Shown: piece after piece, positions 13,495-21,398 of the stretch
How the letters are laid out: each line of letters starts with the position of its first letter
Position numbering within the stretch: position 1 is the stretch's first letter
Source of the DNA: Myxococcales bacterium
Lineage (GTDB): Bacteria > Myxococcota_A > Polyangia > Polyangiales > Houyiibacteriaceae
NCBI GenBank assembly: GCA_029861865.1
Contig: JAOTYL010000011.1
Location: 1 to 64,000 of the forward strand
Reading direction: 5' to 3'
Length of the DNA stretch: 64,000 bases
Translations under genes and position numbers: made by a program
Notes under the pieces: model-generated
What the model was told of the DNA's origin: nothing
Seen by the model: only the letters and a program-made list of their open reading frames with translations
The model's database searches: none

Positions 13495-16400
13495 TTACGG
13501 TACGCAGAGCGTTCCGTTGTTGTAGGAATCGAGGATCCCGGCCAGTTCGTTGGCTTCTTGCTTGGTCCGGCTGTTGATCTCAGTGGTTCCTTTGGAGAAG
13601 TAGTCACCCGTGCCGGTGAAGCCGATATCCACGAGCAACATCTGCCCATCGATCACGGCCTGCCCGGCTTCCGGACACACCCCAGCGCCAGCGGTGTCGT
13701 TGGCGATTGCCGCCAACAGCTGAGCCGCCAGCCCATAGGCTGCGTCGTTGGCCTTCTTCTTGCCACTCGCGATGTCTCGCTTGTCGAGGATGTTGACCGC
13801 ATCCTGGGTGCCCTGGTCGCAGTCAAAGACGTCATCGTCTGCGATCATGTTCAGCAATCCGACCGTGATCCCCGGGGCTTGCAAAACATCATCAAGCAGC
13901 GCATTGCCACTGCCGAGGCGCTCTGCGGGCGTTCCACCGCCATTTTCGATGGCCGTGTCGACCTGGCCGCCACCGGAGCAGGAGTCCCAGTTCTTCCAGT
14001 AGCCGATGGTGCGCGGCTCACCGCCTGGGAACTCGTTGTTGATCTCGAAGACCTCTGTTGCTCCGGCGTCAGCGACGAAGTTGATGCATCGCTCATCGTT
14101 TGAATAGATGGCCGGTGGCGGCGCGTACATCGGATCGAAGACATTGCTCCAGCCCGGCGGCACGGCAACCGGATCGTCATTGACGGCCGGTACGAACGGA
14201 ATGAGCGTCTCCGGAGTCCCGTCGTCGTTGGCGTCGCCCATCCAGGTGTTCGTCCAGGCAGCGGGAATCGCCACCTCGCAGAGCCGATACACCCGGTACG
14301 GATCCAACTGGTATGGGACGAGGTCCGCATCGAATGCCACCATCGAAGGTGGCGACATGACCGTTCCGATGACCGGATCGTCCTGTGTGCAGCCATTAAC
14401 CCCGCAGTCTTGGAGTTGGAACACCCAATTCTGCGTCGCTGGGTTTGGTGACTCGTTGGGTTCGCCCTGGGTCAGCTTGATGATCTTGGCCTCACCCGCC
14501 ACGACGCAGGTGTCCGAAGCCATCGCCTCGTCCGTATTGGGCAAACCGGTGAATTCCGGCAGCACCCACGAGGCCGTCACGGTGTTGCTCACGGTTGCTT
14601 GTCCTGCGAACGGACCCGGCTTGCTCACATCGAAATCCTTTGAATCGCCAGCCGCCAGCGGGAAGGTCCCGATGCCGTCATCTGCGGTCACGATCAGCTC
14701 CACATCGCCGGTGTTCGCGATGGTGACCAAGAACGTCGCCGGCCCGTCCTGCGGCACAGGCTCGTTCGTGCAGGTCTTCGTTACCGTGAAGCTGGGATCG
14801 ATGAGATCAACCGTATGCCCGTCCGTCAGCGTACCGGAGCCACCAAATCCATCGCTGAATTCCACGGTTACCGTGTTCAACAGTGGATCGGGGTCATCGA
14901 TCTGCACCACGTATTCGTAGGTGATGGTGCAGGACTCACCGATCAGCAGCTTGGTTGGCGCCACGGGGCAGTCAAACGATGTAATCGCCCCGTTGGTGGT
15001 GCCATCGGTCAGATCCCCAACCAGGCTGTCGGTGATGGAATCCAGTGTCAGGTCGAGCGCACCGATGTTGTTGATGCTCACCGTGTATTCGACCGTGTCG
15101 CCGGCCTTGGAGATTTCCGGCCCATTCTTTGCGACCGAAAGCGCCTGCTCCTCTGGAATCACAGTGATCGTGACGGAATCCTCGCCTGAAAGCTCATTCG
15201 GAAAACCCTCTGGCGAACAGAGCACCGTAGCGGTGTTCGTGCACTCGATGTCGCCGTCGAAGCTGCATGACGGATCGTTCGCAGGATCACTGAACATCTT
15301 GCCTTTCATGATCACTTCGGTGTCACCCGGCATCAGCATCACACCCTTCCGATCAATCTCGAGCACGGGATCGCTGATGTCGCACACCAGCGTCGGAGTG
15401 TCGCCCGAGCTCGTATTCTCGAGTGTCAACGTATAGTCGACATTGCCACCGATCAGGAGCAGCGTCGGAGACGCTGACTTGCCGGTAGCGACGCAGTCCG
15501 GGTCATCGCCGCCGAAGCAGATCGACGGCTGGAACAGGTTCGTTTCCGCATCATCGCTGTCCGTGAACTCGAGCGAGGTGGGATCGGCGAACTCGGTGTA
15601 GACGATGTCAACCGTGTTTACGAGTGGATCGTCATCACCTTCTTCCACAGTCCGGCTGTAGGTGATCGTGCAGCTCGCGCCGGGAGCGAGTGACGCGCCG
15701 CAATCAGAGTTGGCCGCGTTCGTCAGATCTCCTGCGAGGCTGTCGGTGATGCTCTGCTTGTAGAGCGTCGCGCGGCCGGTGTTCTCGACGGTGACCGAAT
15801 AGTTGACGTCATCGCCCACCTTGGAGAGTTCATCGGCCTCTTTGGTCACCTCGATGCCGCAGACCGGGAACGCGCCGAGGGCGAAGTCTTTGAGCTGCGC
15901 CGTTAGCGACTGAGACGAACGGGTCTCAGCCACGAACGAGCTGAAGCAGCCGATGTCCTGTCCGAGCAGCGCCGTGATGTCGAGTCCGAACTCAGCGAAA
16001 ACCGCCGGGTCGTACTCCGTGTTGCCGTCCTTGTCGAGATACGGGAAAACTGGGTCCCCCGTCTTGGTTGTCTCGTTGATCACGCCGCAGACGTCATCTC
16101 CTGCCGCTACGTTTGCGCAATCGGCTCCACCGACGAGCAGGACTGGACCCACCGGCTTGTTGCCGGGCCCAATTGTGTTGTCCCATCGGTACACCTGGAT
16201 GGCGCCCACGCCGCCGCCCATGGTGAACTCGGCCGCAACGAAGATATCCCCGTCGCTGTGGTCACCGATGAACGTTCCCGGTGTGTTGTCGTCGTCGGTG
16301 CCGAGTATGCCGTCATTGCCTGCGACGGGATCGCCGTCCGCGGTCTGCCCCGACAAGGTCACCGGCTGCCGAAAGAACCAGAAACCCACGTTGTTGGAGC

Positions 16401-16986
16401 CCTGCTCCGCGTACGTGTCGAGCCCGAAATAGAAAATGGTATGCCCGTCGTTCGGGTCGTCGTAGGCCGCAGCGAACGCATTGACGATGTCATTCTTGTC
16501 GGGCACTTGGTCGTTGAACGTGTCGTACAGCCACGGGCCGCCCGCTCCGTCCGCCGGGTCACTTGCACCGGGTCCGCAAGGATCCTGCAAGCATTCGGTG
16601 TCCTTGGACCCGCCGCCCGTGAAGAAGCTGATCTCGGGCGTTCTCCCTTCGAAGGGGCCCGGGATTTCGTTATTTGCGAACGTATCTTGGATAAACGCAG
16701 TGGCAAACGCACCGGACGTACCATTGAAGACGTTCTCCCAGTCGTCGCCCGGTACCAGAACGTCGTCCATGGTGTTGCCGTCTCCCGTGCCATCGACGAC
16801 ATCGAGCTCAAAGAGTCCGACGTCGTGAACCGCCTGCACGGAACTGCCCACACTCTCGTCGCCTCCGCTGGTACAGCCGAGCGCGGTAACACCCGACAGA
16901 CCGAGTAGTGCCACGCTCGTCAAAAAGCGCCGCGCGAACGCAACACTGCGCTTGTGTATAACAACCTTGTTTCGTTCCATCTCCAA
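13495..16986 (-). CDS. Large surface lipoprotein with DUF11-type repeats
   Basis: A 1163-residue lipoprotein: an n-region of Lys/Arg, a hydrophobic stretch and the lipobox TALGC (Cys38). Residues about 50-380 form an acidic Asp/Gly-rich N-domain. Then come repeated DUF11/conserved-repeat domains with the pattern sVTKxAdxxxxGDxVxYxVTVxNxG (e.g. KVGDDVNYSVTVENTG, KAGDTVEYTVSINNIG), each with the TNTVTV-like edge strand. The C-terminal region contains RTIGYWKNWDSC, a motif frequent in secreted repeat proteins. AAGGAG precedes the ATG at 16986. No catalytic motif; likely a cell-surface stalk or matrix protein. It is acidic and compositionally distinct from cytoplasmic neighbours. Confidence 0.85.
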   Translation of the reverse strand: MEMERNKVVIHKRSVAFARRFLTSVALLGLSGVTALGCTSGGDESVGSSVQAVHDVGLFELDVVDGTGDGNTMDDVLVPGDDWENVFNGTSGAFATAFIQDTFANNEIPGPFEGRTPEISFFTGGGSKDTECLQDPCGPGASDPADGAGGPWLYDTFNDQVPDKNDIVNAFAAAYDDPNDGHTIFYFGLDTYAEQGSNNVGFWFFRQPVTLSGQTADGDPVAGNDGILGTDDDNTPGTFIGDHSDGDIFVAAEFTMGGGVGAIQVYRWDNTIGPGNKPVGPVLLVGGADCANVAAGDDVCGVINETTKTGDPVFPYLDKDGNTEYDPAVFAEFGLDITALLGQDIGCFSSFVAETRSSQSLTAQLKDFALGAFPVCGIEVTKEADELSKVGDDVNYSVTVENTGRATLYKQSITDSLAGDLTNAANSDCGASLAPGASCTITYSRTVEEGDDDPLVNTVDIVYTEFADPTSLEFTDSDDAETNLFQPSICFGGDDPDCVATGKSASPTLLLIGGNVDYTLTLENTSSGDTPTLVCDISDPVLEIDRKGVMLMPGDTEVIMKGKMFSDPANDPSCSFDGDIECTNTATVLCSPEGFPNELSGEDSVTITVIPEEQALSVAKNGPEISKAGDTVEYTVSINNIGALDLTLDSITDSLVGDLTDGTTNGAITSFDCPVAPTKLLIGESCTITYEYVVQIDDPDPLLNTVTVEFSDGFGGSGTLTDGHTVDLIDPSFTVTKTCTNEPVPQDGPATFLVTIANTGDVELIVTADDGIGTFPLAAGDSKDFDVSKPGPFAGQATVSNTVTASWVLPEFTGLPNTDEAMASDTCVVAGEAKIIKLTQGEPNESPNPATQNWVFQLQDCGVNGCTQDDPVIGTVMSPPSMVAFDADLVPYQLDPYRVYRLCEVAIPAAWTNTWMGDANDDGTPETLIPFVPAVNDDPVAVPPGWSNVFDPMYAPPPAIYSNDERCINFVADAGATEVFEINNEFPGGEPRTIGYWKNWDSCSGGGQVDTAIENGGGTPAERLGSGNALLDDVLQAPGITVGLLNMIADDDVFDCDQGTQDAVNILDKRDIASGKKKANDAAYGLAAQLLAAIANDTAGAGVCPEAGQAVIDGQMLLVDIGFTGTGDYFSKGTTEINSRTKQEANELAGILDSYNNGTLCVP

Positions 16987-17681: not shown

Positions 17682-20108
17682 ATGACGCAACCACGAAATG
17701 TGTACCCTTGGCGTTGGGGTGCGGGTGTTGCGCTAGCCGCCTTTTGGTTGCTCACCGCGCTCCTGGTGGGGAACGCCCTCGCCGCCCTTTGGTTGGTCCA
17801 GGGACTGCTGACGGGAGACGACGCGACGAAAGCGCGCGTCCCCGAGGCCGTTGCCACCGAAGAGGGCGTCACCCACGCCCTGCTGATCAACGGCGGCTCC
17901 CGGCCCGAGTCGAACTACCAGAGCCATCTGCACCACCTGCAAGAGATGGTGCAGGTGCTCCTGGCGCGTGGCCTGCCCCGCGACCGGATTCACATCTTCT
18001 CTGCCGACGGTGCGGACGAGGCGCCGGATCTCGCGGTTCGCGATACGCAACCTGACGGCTTTTGGCTCATCGAGGGGACGCGCATCGGCAAGAAGCTCAA
18101 GCCGCAGACCGAGGTCACCGATACCCGTTGGCCTGGAGTGACCCTGCATCCGGCCAGAAAGGAAGCCCTGGAAAAGTGGTTCGCCGATGCGGAAGACCTG
18201 TTGCCAGGCGATCGGCTGTTGGTCTTTGTGACCGACCATGGGACGCAGAATCGCCAGCAACCGGACAACGGCGCCATCTCGCTGTGGCGAGAGAAGCTGA
18301 CGGTGGAGGAGTTCAAGGGGCTCCTTGGACAGCTTAGGCCGGGTGTCCAGACGGTGATGGTGATGAGCCAGTGCTACTCGGGCACGTTTGCGGCCACCAT
18401 CTACGACGATCTCTCCGGCGAGCCCGGCGGCGATGCCTGCGGCTTTTTCTCGACGACGCGCGATCGCCAGGCCTACGGCTGCTATCCGGAAGGGCGCGAT
18501 CGGGACCGAATCGGTCACGCGTTCCGCTTTATCGACGCGCTCGACCGCAACCCGACCACCGACGAGGCCCATCTCGACGTGCTGCTCACCGATAGCACTC
18601 CGGATGTCCCGATGCGCACCAGCGACTTGTATCTCGAGCGGCTGGTTGCCGAGGAGTCTGCGGCTCGTGGGGTAGGGTTGGAGTCGCTGGTCGATTCGCT
18701 GCTCGCCAAGGCATGGCAGGAACGCGCAGCCTGGGAGCCCGAGATCCGGCTTCTCGACGGGATCGGCGAGGCGTTTGGCACGTTCAGTCCGCGCAGTCTC
18801 GCGGAGTTGAAGGGCTACGAAGGCGAGCTCCGGCCGCTCGCGGACAAGATGAAGGACTTCTCCGAGCGATGGAAGGGGACCCTGGTCGACGTCAAGGAAG
18901 AGACCCTGCGGAAGTTCATGCGGGAGCTGCCCGAGTGGCAAGAGCTCCTCCAGCAAGCCCATTTGCAGAAGCTCGACGCCGAGCAAAGGGGCGTCCTTCT
19001 CGCTGAGCTGCTGTCCGAGCTCGAGCCGTTCGTGCGCGACCGACAGGAGATCTGGGAACGACTCGAAGGGCTCCGCGAGCGCGCGCGCGGGGCGTCGCAG
19101 GCACGGTGGCGGCTGGACGTTCGGGGTGGGGCCCTGCACCGGATGCGGTCCGTACTGATGGCCGTCGCGGGTCGAGTCCTGCTCGCCGAGCGTGCGACCG
19201 TAGAGGCCGAAGCCGAGCGCCGCCGGAACCAACAGCAGGCCCTGGATTCCCTCTTGAGCTGCGAAGCGTTTGAGCCTGGTGAGCTTCGGCGGCGGTGGTT
19301 CGCGCTCGAGCCACCCCTGGTCGACCCCTTCCCGCCGCTCAGCGACGAGCGCAAGCTGCTGGAGGACGTTCTGCCGTCGTGGCTCGGTGTGAAGTACGCG
19401 GCGGTGCCCCAAGGGGTGCGCGCTGGCCGCCAGATACCGGCCGGCGCCAGCTGGCTGCAGGCGGTCTTTCCCCGATCACCGGCCCTGGAGGCGGGTCTCG
19501 CGGTCGGCGACGTCGTGTTGGGACCTCCGGATAGAACGTTCGACTTCTACGGTCAGCTTCGTGAATGGACGATGACCTCTCCGCGGAACACGCCGATGCC
19601 GTTGCGGGTGATCCGCCCCGGTCCGGAGCGCGACGAGGACGTTGAGTTCGTCGCCTCGCCGGTCTTGCGCCCGCTCCCGCTCGAATGGCCCGAGCTGCCT
19701 GGACCGCCGAAGCTCGGAGAGCTGGCGCCTTCGCTGCCGACCGGTCTCGAGCAGGTCGGCGGCGGCAGCCTGCCTGATCTGGAGGGTCGATCTCATCTCC
19801 TGTTCTTCTGGGCCACCTGGTGTCTGCCCTGCAAGAAGGCGGTACCCGAAGTGATCGCCTTTGCGCACGCGCAGGGCATTCCAGTGTTGGCGATCACCGA
19901 CGAGGACAGCGACAGGGTCGCCAGCTTTCTCGATACGCACCCAGAGGAGTTCTTCTCGCTAATCGCCACCGACCGGCTGCGCGCCAGCTTTCTCGCTTAT
20001 GGGGTGAGCGGTACCCCAACCTTGGTTCTGATGGACAAGGACAACGTCGTGCGGCAGCGCCAGGTGGGGTACAAGCCCGGGGAAGGGCTGAGCCTCCACG
20101 GTTGGTAG
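17682..20108 (+). CDS. Membrane-anchored caspase-like peptidase / PDZ-like / thioredoxin fusion
   Basis: An 808-residue multidomain protein. Residues 16-42 form an N-terminal transmembrane anchor. Residues 62-310 look like a clan CD (legumain C13/caspase-like) peptidase: HALLINGGSRPESNY, the His motif VFVTDHGTQN (His186) and the Cys motif TVMVMSQCYSGTF (Cys231). Charged helical segments follow (about 370-530). A PDZ-like segment at 575-660 contains SPALEAGLAVGDVVLG. The C-terminus is a thioredoxin/TlpA-like domain with FFWATWCLPCKKAVPE (Cys714, Cys717) and cis-Pro at GTPTL. The anchor implies an extracytoplasmic position for all domains. It is flanked by duplicated antiporter sequence. Substrate unknown; redox-controlled proteolysis is my inference. 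Confidence 0.85.
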   Translation: MTQPRNVYPWRWGAGVALAAFWLLTALLVGNALAALWLVQGLLTGDDATKARVPEAVATEEGVTHALLINGGSRPESNYQSHLHHLQEMVQVLLARGLPRDRIHIFSADGADEAPDLAVRDTQPDGFWLIEGTRIGKKLKPQTEVTDTRWPGVTLHPARKEALEKWFADAEDLLPGDRLLVFVTDHGTQNRQQPDNGAISLWREKLTVEEFKGLLGQLRPGVQTVMVMSQCYSGTFAATIYDDLSGEPGGDACGFFSTTRDRQAYGCYPEGRDRDRIGHAFRFIDALDRNPTTDEAHLDVLLTDSTPDVPMRTSDLYLERLVAEESAARGVGLESLVDSLLAKAWQERAAWEPEIRLLDGIGEAFGTFSPRSLAELKGYEGELRPLADKMKDFSERWKGTLVDVKEETLRKFMRELPEWQELLQQAHLQKLDAEQRGVLLAELLSELEPFVRDRQEIWERLEGLRERARGASQARWRLDVRGGALHRMRSVLMAVAGRVLLAERATVEAEAERRRNQQQALDSLLSCEAFEPGELRRRWFALEPPLVDPFPPLSDERKLLEDVLPSWLGVKYAAVPQGVRAGRQIPAGASWLQAVFPRSPALEAGLAVGDVVLGPPDRTFDFYGQLREWTMTSPRNTPMPLRVIRPGPERDEDVEFVASPVLRPLPLEWPELPGPPKLGELAPSLPTGLEQVGGGSLPDLEGRSHLLFFWATWCLPCKKAVPEVIAFAHAQGIPVLAITDEDSDRVASFLDTHPEEFFSLIATDRLRASFLAYGVSGTPTLVLMDKDNVVRQRQVGYKPGEGLSLHGW

Positions 20109-20141
20109 TGATCGTGCGACGCGATCGAGCGGCCGCGTCTC

Positions 20142-21398
20142 TCACATGCGAAGCGGTTGCTCGACGACGGCCTTGTGCTCTTCGGGGCAGTGCGCCGCAT
20201 CGCTTGCCGCCCGGCCGTACCACCGCGCTGCGGGCGCAGCGCTCATGCCGTGTGCGAACACGCTTGCCAGCACGGTGAGGATCACGACGTCGAAAACCAA
20301 GGGACCGTGGGGGAGGGCGGCTTCTTCCAAGATCAGGATCGCAAACAAAAGTGACGCCAGGCCGCGCGGCCCGAACCAGCCCAGGAAGACCACGCTTGGA
20401 GCGCGCAATCCACTTCCCATCATCGAAATCGCAACGGGCACCATTCGAACCACCGTCAGGCTCAGAACGACGTAGAGCCACATGCGGCCGCTGCCCTCGG
20501 CGATCGTCGGCCAGGCGAGGTGCACGCCGAGTAGCAGAAACACCAGGAGAACCAGCAGCTGCCCCTCGGCTTCGAGGAACTGGTAGAGATACTCGCACTG
20601 ACCTCGTTGGCTGTTGCCGAGGGTCATGCCCGCCACGAACGCGGCGATGAAGCCGTTGCCCCCGATCTGCTCGGCACCGGTGAAGGCGAGGAGGGCGAGG
20701 GCGATCCCGGCGAGCCGCCCGAAGTTGCCGCTCATCCACTCCCGGCTCTGCGAGGCGTTGATCAACCGGCCGCCGATCCACGCCACCGCAACGCCTGCCA
20801 ACGGCCCGAGGGTGACCTGCCGCGCTGCAAACCAAACCCACTCGGAGGCAGTGCGCGCTTCGCCTCCGCCCATGCTGGCAAGCGCGGCAAAGATCAACAC
20901 GACCGGCAGTGCGATGCCGTCGTTCAATCCGCTCTCCACGTTCAGGGCCTGGCGGATGCGGAGCGGCACAGAAGGCGTGCTGACCACGGCTTGACCGAGC
21001 GCGGCGTCGGTTGGTGCAAGGATCGCACCGAGCACCGCGGCTTCGAGCCAGGTCGTCTGCGGGAATAGGAGCTTGGCGGCGAGGGCACCCGCGATGATGG
21101 TAAGCGGCATGCCGATCCCGAGGAGGCGCGCCGGCAGCCCGAGCTCGTTCCGCAACACGCGAAGGTCGATGCGCGCCGCATCGCCAAACAGCACGAGCAC
21201 GAGGGTCAGCTCGGCAAGCACGTGAATCACCCCTTGGTCGATGTGCATGCTGAGCGCCGCCAAGCTTCCGCTACCAAAGAGCAGCCCAAGGGTCACGAAC
21301 ACCATCGGAGGTGTGACGATGGTCCGCTCGAGCCGCTTCGATACCAACCCGTAGCCGAGGACGAAGAGCGCTATCCACATGAAGGTCGTCGCGTCCAC
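20142..21398 (-). CDS. CPA1-type Na+/H+ antiporter
   Basis: A 418-residue polytopic membrane protein with about 12 helices. It has the CPA1/NhaP-type motifs LGAILAPTDAALGQAV and NVESGLNDGIALPVVL, where the Asn-Asp pair is the ion-binding site of electroneutral antiporters. It exchanges H+ for Na+ or another monovalent cation across the inner membrane. There is no cytoplasmic RCK/TrkA-N domain; a short His/Glu-rich tail (CPEEHKAVVEQPLR) follows the last helix. Tail-to-tail with the caspase-like gene; a broken copy of its 3' end lies beyond that gene at 17252-17502. Confidence 0.9.
   Translation of the reverse strand: MDATTFMWIALFVLGYGLVSKRLERTIVTPPMVFVTLGLLFGSGSLAALSMHIDQGVIHVLAELTLVLVLFGDAARIDLRVLRNELGLPARLLGIGMPLTIIAGALAAKLLFPQTTWLEAAVLGAILAPTDAALGQAVVSTPSVPLRIRQALNVESGLNDGIALPVVLIFAALASMGGGEARTASEWVWFAARQVTLGPLAGVAVAWIGGRLINASQSREWMSGNFGRLAGIALALLAFTGAEQIGGNGFIAAFVAGMTLGNSQRGQCEYLYQFLEAEGQLLVLLVFLLLGVHLAWPTIAEGSGRMWLYVVLSLTVVRMVPVAISMMGSGLRAPSVVFLGWFGPRGLASLLFAILILEEAALPHGPLVFDVVILTVLASVFAHGMSAAPAARWYGRAASDAAHCPEEHKAVVEQPLRM

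Follow-up and report, generated by a model that had tools for sequence, protein, structure and literature searches.

A conserved one-gene fusion of legumain-type peptidase, PDZ, and thioredoxin domains in Myxococcota and other bacteria

Legumain (MEROPS C13, PF01650) is a cysteine peptidase of the lysosome or vacuole, and it shares its clan CD fold and His/Cys dyad with the metacaspases and orthocaspases (C14). Bacterial envelope proteases of the HtrA/DegP/DegS group are serine peptidases of another fold; the HtrA/DegP-type PDZ domains of periplasmic proteases bind client tails. A further group, comprising ResA, CcmG, StoA, and TlpA, consists of membrane-tethered extracytoplasmic proteins with a thioredoxin fold and a WCxxC motif. 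Here, we describe a gene whose product joins domains related to each of these groups in one polypeptide. It lies in a 64,000-nucleotide stretch of a Myxococcales bacterium genome (hereafter the window; contig JAOTYL010000011.1 of assembly GCA_029861865.1), in which an open reading frame on the plus strand (17,682–20,108) runs from ATG to stop and encodes 808 amino acids. All of its domains come from known families. Our search of the open-access literature returned no description of a C13/legumain peptidase with thioredoxin and PDZ domains, an absence that is weak evidence that the combination is new, and the words thioredoxin, PDZ, and C13 do not occur in a survey of prokaryotic caspase homologs (PMC3501461).

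The window protein resembles legumain in its peptidase fold and in the alignment of its TDHG and catalytic Cys motifs. It departs from legumain in several respects: a Ser occupies the position of the S1-pocket Glu, a helical arm replaces the legumain pro-domain, two additional cysteines (Cys253 and Cys527) are present, a membrane anchor, a PDZ domain, and a thioredoxin domain are attached, and its probable location is the bacterial envelope. Metacaspases and orthocaspases have the clan CD fold and dyad in common with it, but they appear to match it less well than legumain does in both structure and sequence. With HtrA, DegP, and DegS, the protein shares a likely envelope setting and an HtrA-type PDZ domain, whereas its peptidase is of the cysteine rather than the serine class, has a different fold, and is accompanied by a thioredoxin domain. 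It is like ResA, CcmG, StoA, and TlpA in its WCxxC fold and, presumably, in its membrane-tethered extracytoplasmic setting; unlike them, it scores far below the family cutoffs, is fused to a peptidase, and, by simple counting from the CxxC motif, carries Ala in place of ResA Glu80 (a position taken from PDB titles). Stand-alone PDZ-thioredoxin proteins from the same bacterial order (L098 and L101) correspond to the same half of the protein and are likewise exported, but they have no peptidase.

Domain composition of the 808-residue protein

An AlphaFold2 model of the protein, built from an alignment of 31 homologs that span its length at 28–90% identity, has a mean pLDDT of 87 and a pTM of 0.77 and contains the expected peptidase, PDZ, and thioredoxin folds behind a helix at residues 10–43. 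That helix (17,709–17,810; this and all further feature coordinates of the gene are on the plus strand) is hydrophobic in sequence and bears out the N-terminal membrane anchor proposed in a first-pass annotation of the window. Several homologs have a lipobox-type Cys instead of the helix, and both features fit membrane-tethered envelope proteins; we infer a periplasmic location for this exported, membrane-anchored protein. Comparison of the window copy with that of a congeneric genome (G018) indicates purifying selection in every domain. The whole-gene dN/dS is 0.26, with values of 0.17 for the peptidase domain (the strongest constraint), 0.20 for PDZ, 0.38 for thioredoxin, and 0.49 for the anchor (the weakest).

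The peptidase domain (residues ~62–310; 17,865–18,611) is, by its sequence and predicted fold, of legumain (C13) rather than caspase (C14) type. The first-pass annotation had described a caspase-like peptidase of clan CD; the clan stands, and legumain fits better than caspase. The Pfam model Peptidase_C13 matches residues 175–281 of the window protein with 22.3 bits (E 1e-4) against a cutoff of 22.8, reaches 23.7 bits, above the cutoff, in a genome-wide search, and detects 29 of the 31 homologs (best E 1.8e-9), while no C14 match appears among the Pfam models listed for the window protein and its homologs. In a profile search of residues 62–348 against PDB sequences, human legumain ranks first (E 1.7e-4), its TDHG motif and catalytic Cys aligning with the His186 and Cys231 motifs. 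The AlphaFold model likewise superimposes on human legumain (7fqj) with a Z score of 20.7 over 217 residues (rmsd 3.0 Å); further structural matches are plant asparaginyl ligases (Z ~19–20), PIG-K (18.9), and metacaspases (~18; 18.4), among them metacaspases 9 and 4. A search of the window genome found no further C13 proteins.

Conservation of the catalytic residues was assessed in a larger alignment of 57 sequences, 48 of them from the protein's own clade (three identical pairs, hence 45 distinct) and 9 from a sister clade. The His186/Cys231 pair picked out at first reading, in VTDHG (18,228–18,242) and SQCYSG contexts (MSQC, 18,363–18,374), is retained in the predicted fold, and the clan CD dyad contexts His186-Gly187 and Cys231-x-x-Gly234 occur in all 57 rows. 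Every named motif is also invariant in the 31-sequence alignment, far beyond chance. Two residues before the catalytic Cys, Ser229 is found in each of the 48 clade rows and is replaced by Thr in all nine sister-clade rows. The corresponding −2 residue in plant legumain, Glu217 of AtLEGγ, belongs to the S1 pocket (PMC5995516). With Ser in place of this Glu, specificity for Asn or Asp is not to be assumed; the bipolar S1 pocket that marks asparaginyl endopeptidases lacks its Glu here, which makes an asparaginyl endopeptidase proper less likely and leaves the assignment as a C13-type peptidase unaffected.

Three more cysteines accompany Cys231 in 57 of 57 rows: Cys253 (18,438–18,440), Cys267 (18,480–18,482), and Cys527, which with Glu528 (19,260–19,265) marks the end of a helical arm. 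Cys267 aligns with the Cys of the human legumain SYAC motif, and the other two have no legumain counterpart. All three being invariant, the 57 rows hold no joint loss that would be informative for pairing them. These cysteines went unmentioned in the first-pass annotation, as did the arm itself, a fourth module (residues ~311–535; 18,612–19,286) that forms long antiparallel helices in the AlphaFold models. The structural match to legumain covers model residues 62–534, a range that suggests that the last arm helix (508–528) packs back onto the legumain-like core and that the intervening helices are an insertion. Compared on its own with the PDB, the arm gave generic long-helix matches only (best Z 8.4, rmsd >11, none at E <0.1).

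The PDZ domain (residues ~565–660; 19,374–19,661) is weakly matched by Pfam PDZ in the window protein (residues 595–654, E 0.1). The NCBIfam DegP/HtrA model TIGR02037 matches residues 563–655 with an E value of 1.8e-5 and recognizes 27 of the 31 homologs, and PDZ_2 is found in 26 of the 31 (best E 3.6e-11), which upholds the earlier reading of this segment as PDZ-like. The domain is missing from four homologs that make up one branch of the tree (L022, L024, L036, and L039) and from a second copy in genome G300.

C-terminal to it lies a thioredoxin domain (residues ~676–808; 19,707–20,105) with a WCLPC redox motif at residues 713–717 (Cys714 and Cys717; 19,818–19,832). The Pfam models Redoxin and AhpC-TSA score above cutoff over residues 693–800, and thioredoxin-type models match all 31 homologs. 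The domain superimposes on a DsbE-like protein of Chlorobium (3gl3) with a Z score of 17.6 (rmsd 1.9 Å over 128 residues), and ResA and CcmG match as well, in agreement with the TlpA/ResA-like domain recognized initially. Its scores fall below every named subfamily cutoff (44.7 bits against 170 for ResA and 43.4 against 123 for dsbE, with TlpA likewise below), and so we place it in the general fold family only. Both the CxxC motif and the cis-proline, Pro779, are kept in 46 of the 48 clade rows.

Distribution and natural variants of the family

A scan of species genomes identified ~35 loci that match most of the protein, in addition to partial ones at contig ends. At E <1e-20, a match is present in 20 of 284 sampled genomes of the phylum, representing 17 of 188 genera (~7% of the genomes). 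Carriers belong mainly to Myxococcota/Deltaproteobacteria and also to Acidobacteriota, Binatota, and others, with the qualification that most homologs come from metagenome bins of somewhat doubtful taxonomy; one homolog record bears the name Klebsiella pneumoniae. The closest relative from outside the genus, in an Acidobacteria bin, is 55% identical. Within the genus, 18 other genomes yielded an intact full-length copy only in G018 (90% identical), pointing to a patchy distribution; another, G017, holds a diverged copy whose parts lie on two contigs. The same domain order, which the first-pass annotation had suggested looking for in other Myxococcota, recurs there and beyond the phylum too. 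The gene therefore represents a conserved, real enzyme family in which a one-gene fusion has been kept across many lineages, and this bacterial branch of the legumain family would be large enough to be compared with the eukaryotic enzymes.

Related proteins contain one half or the other. Nine proteins from the same phylum (L088, L096, L099, L135, L137, L138, L140, L141, and L143) form the sister clade; they consist of peptidase and arm, lack PDZ and thioredoxin domains, and end 6–13 residues past the CE motif. In a tree of the core, the split between the two C13 clades is fully supported. Rooted between them, the tree does not tell gain of the thioredoxin half from its loss; either way, the composite architecture has persisted for a long time. 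The converse arrangement, an exported stand-alone PDZ-thioredoxin protein, is seen in L085, L087, L098, and L101, and inspection by eye of the few genomes listed revealed no clear pattern of co-occurrence between such proteins and thioredoxin-less C13 proteins.

Two members of the composite clade depart from the rule at the thioredoxin domain. L106, from genome G288, is full-length with the dyad and additional cysteines intact, and its WCxxC motif reads WSGKG in frame. In L130, the thioredoxin domain is gone and the peptidase dyad is kept. A redox-dead and a domain-less protein that both retain the dyad argue that the redox chemistry of the thioredoxin domain, though usual, is not indispensable for keeping the peptidase. 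Together with the homologs that lack PDZ, these natural variants offer a direct way to test what each part contributes.

Candidate mechanisms

Starting from the domain order, folds, dyad, CxxC motif, membrane anchor, and lineage-wide fusion described above, the reading that we favor, at slightly less than even confidence, is that of an exported, tethered protease whose thioredoxin domain keeps either the active site or disulfide-bonded clients reduced. The C13-type cysteine peptidase, held at the membrane, would cut envelope clients that the PDZ domain probably helps to catch. The C-terminal thioredoxin would serve as a built-in reductase for the peptidase or for disulfide-bonded clients, enabling their cleavage, and would draw its electrons from a DsbD-like protein. 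Proteolytic activity, client capture, the direction of the redox reaction, and its coupling to cleavage are thus predicted properties. If this is correct, a single envelope-protease chain would unite client capture, disulfide reduction, and cleavage.

The genomic redox setting is compatible with this proposal. The window genome (G000) encodes a DsbD-like electron carrier with a C-terminal thioredoxin domain of its own. Neither DsbB nor VKOR was matched in this genome, which is estimated to be 100% complete; the combination speaks for reduction rather than oxidation by the thioredoxin domain of the fusion protein. By sequence and fold, the domain would also sit in the reducing ResA/CcmG/StoA group, and the invariance of the peptidase hallmarks in 48 rows, alongside a CxxC motif in 46, is consistent with a tethered reductase. 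Against such a role speak the dyads maintained in L106 and L130, the sister clade, which manages without a thioredoxin domain, and the fact that no partner gene is conserved alongside across the family.

Several of the same observations bear on other explanations. The two halves might be independent modules with only the anchor in common, the peptidase processing an envelope protein and the PDZ-thioredoxin half reducing other clients. Stand-alone PDZ-thioredoxin and stand-alone C13-helical proteins in the same order are what such a division would produce, and the peptidase is retained where PDZ has been lost and in the two cases of lost thioredoxin function; yet a one-gene fusion kept across many families and other phyla would be unusual for unrelated halves, and we regard this reading as possible but distinctly less probable than a tethered reductase. 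We are more doubtful of a redox switch in which a reversible disulfide among Cys231, Cys253, Cys267, and Cys527, set by the thioredoxin domain, toggles the peptidase. The invariance of the three added cysteines next to the catalytic one speaks for it, as does their odd number, which leaves at least one unpaired and able to pair with Cys231. However, these cysteines do not vary in the thioredoxin-less sister clade either, and they persist in L106 with its Cys-less thioredoxin; the thioredoxin domain is therefore not what they are conserved for, and they may be structural. The disulfide-sensing peptidase switch envisaged in the first-pass annotation is accordingly possible but weakened, since the sister clade, L106, and L130 all keep the dyad without a working thioredoxin. 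Marginally more doubtful still is the full version of this idea, a self-contained redox-gated envelope protease in which the thioredoxin domain would make or break a disulfide among the four cysteines and so switch the cleavage of PDZ-bound clients; were it true, the redox state of the envelope would decide whether clients are cleaved.

The remaining two explanations concern the nature of the C13 domain and of the fusion itself. Plant peptide asparaginyl ligases and PIG-K, the latter from GPI transamidase, are close structural matches, at the Z scores given above, and in principle the domain could act as these enzymes do, joining or transferring peptides as a ligase or transamidase instead of cleaving them as a protease. 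We consider this improbable: the legumain S1 Glu corresponds to the invariant Ser229, making the same Asn/Asp recognition unlikely, and to our knowledge these bacteria have no GPI-like acceptor system. The probability that the three-domain fusion is a chance event or an assembly error is negligible. A duplicated antiporter fragment flanking the gene shows that the region has been rearranged, but full-length homologs with the same domain order, 28–90% identical and drawn from dozens of independent genomes, refute an artefactual origin.

Genomic surroundings

Comparison of the neighborhoods of the homologs revealed no neighbor gene shared across the family. Downstream in the window, a convergent Na+/H+ antiporter gene occupies 20,142–21,398 on the minus strand, and it is adjacent in G018 too. 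The segment 17,249–17,533 duplicates the 3′ end of this antiporter gene (20,141–20,427) at up to 91% identity, and the fusion gene thus sits between the intact antiporter gene and, upstream, a partial copy of it. The upstream position in the sister species G018 is taken by a gene resembling a multicopper oxidase instead of the antiporter fragment.

Other members of the family have different upstream neighbors. By eye, a gene for a Crp/Fnr-like regulator lies directly upstream of L007, L008, and L013, abutting or overlapping the start codon. An AcrB-type RND transporter gene precedes L157, L158, L037, and L162, which come mainly from one lineage, and in three of these four it touches or overlaps the start of the peptidase-thioredoxin gene. 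A frame of 2638/2982 amino acids in G157 that would join the gene to its upstream partner was set aside, as it looked like a spurious open frame of high-GC DNA. In the window, the gene is also adjoined by a minus-strand gene (13,495–16,986) for a large, secreted-looking protein with DUF11/DUF7507 repeats.
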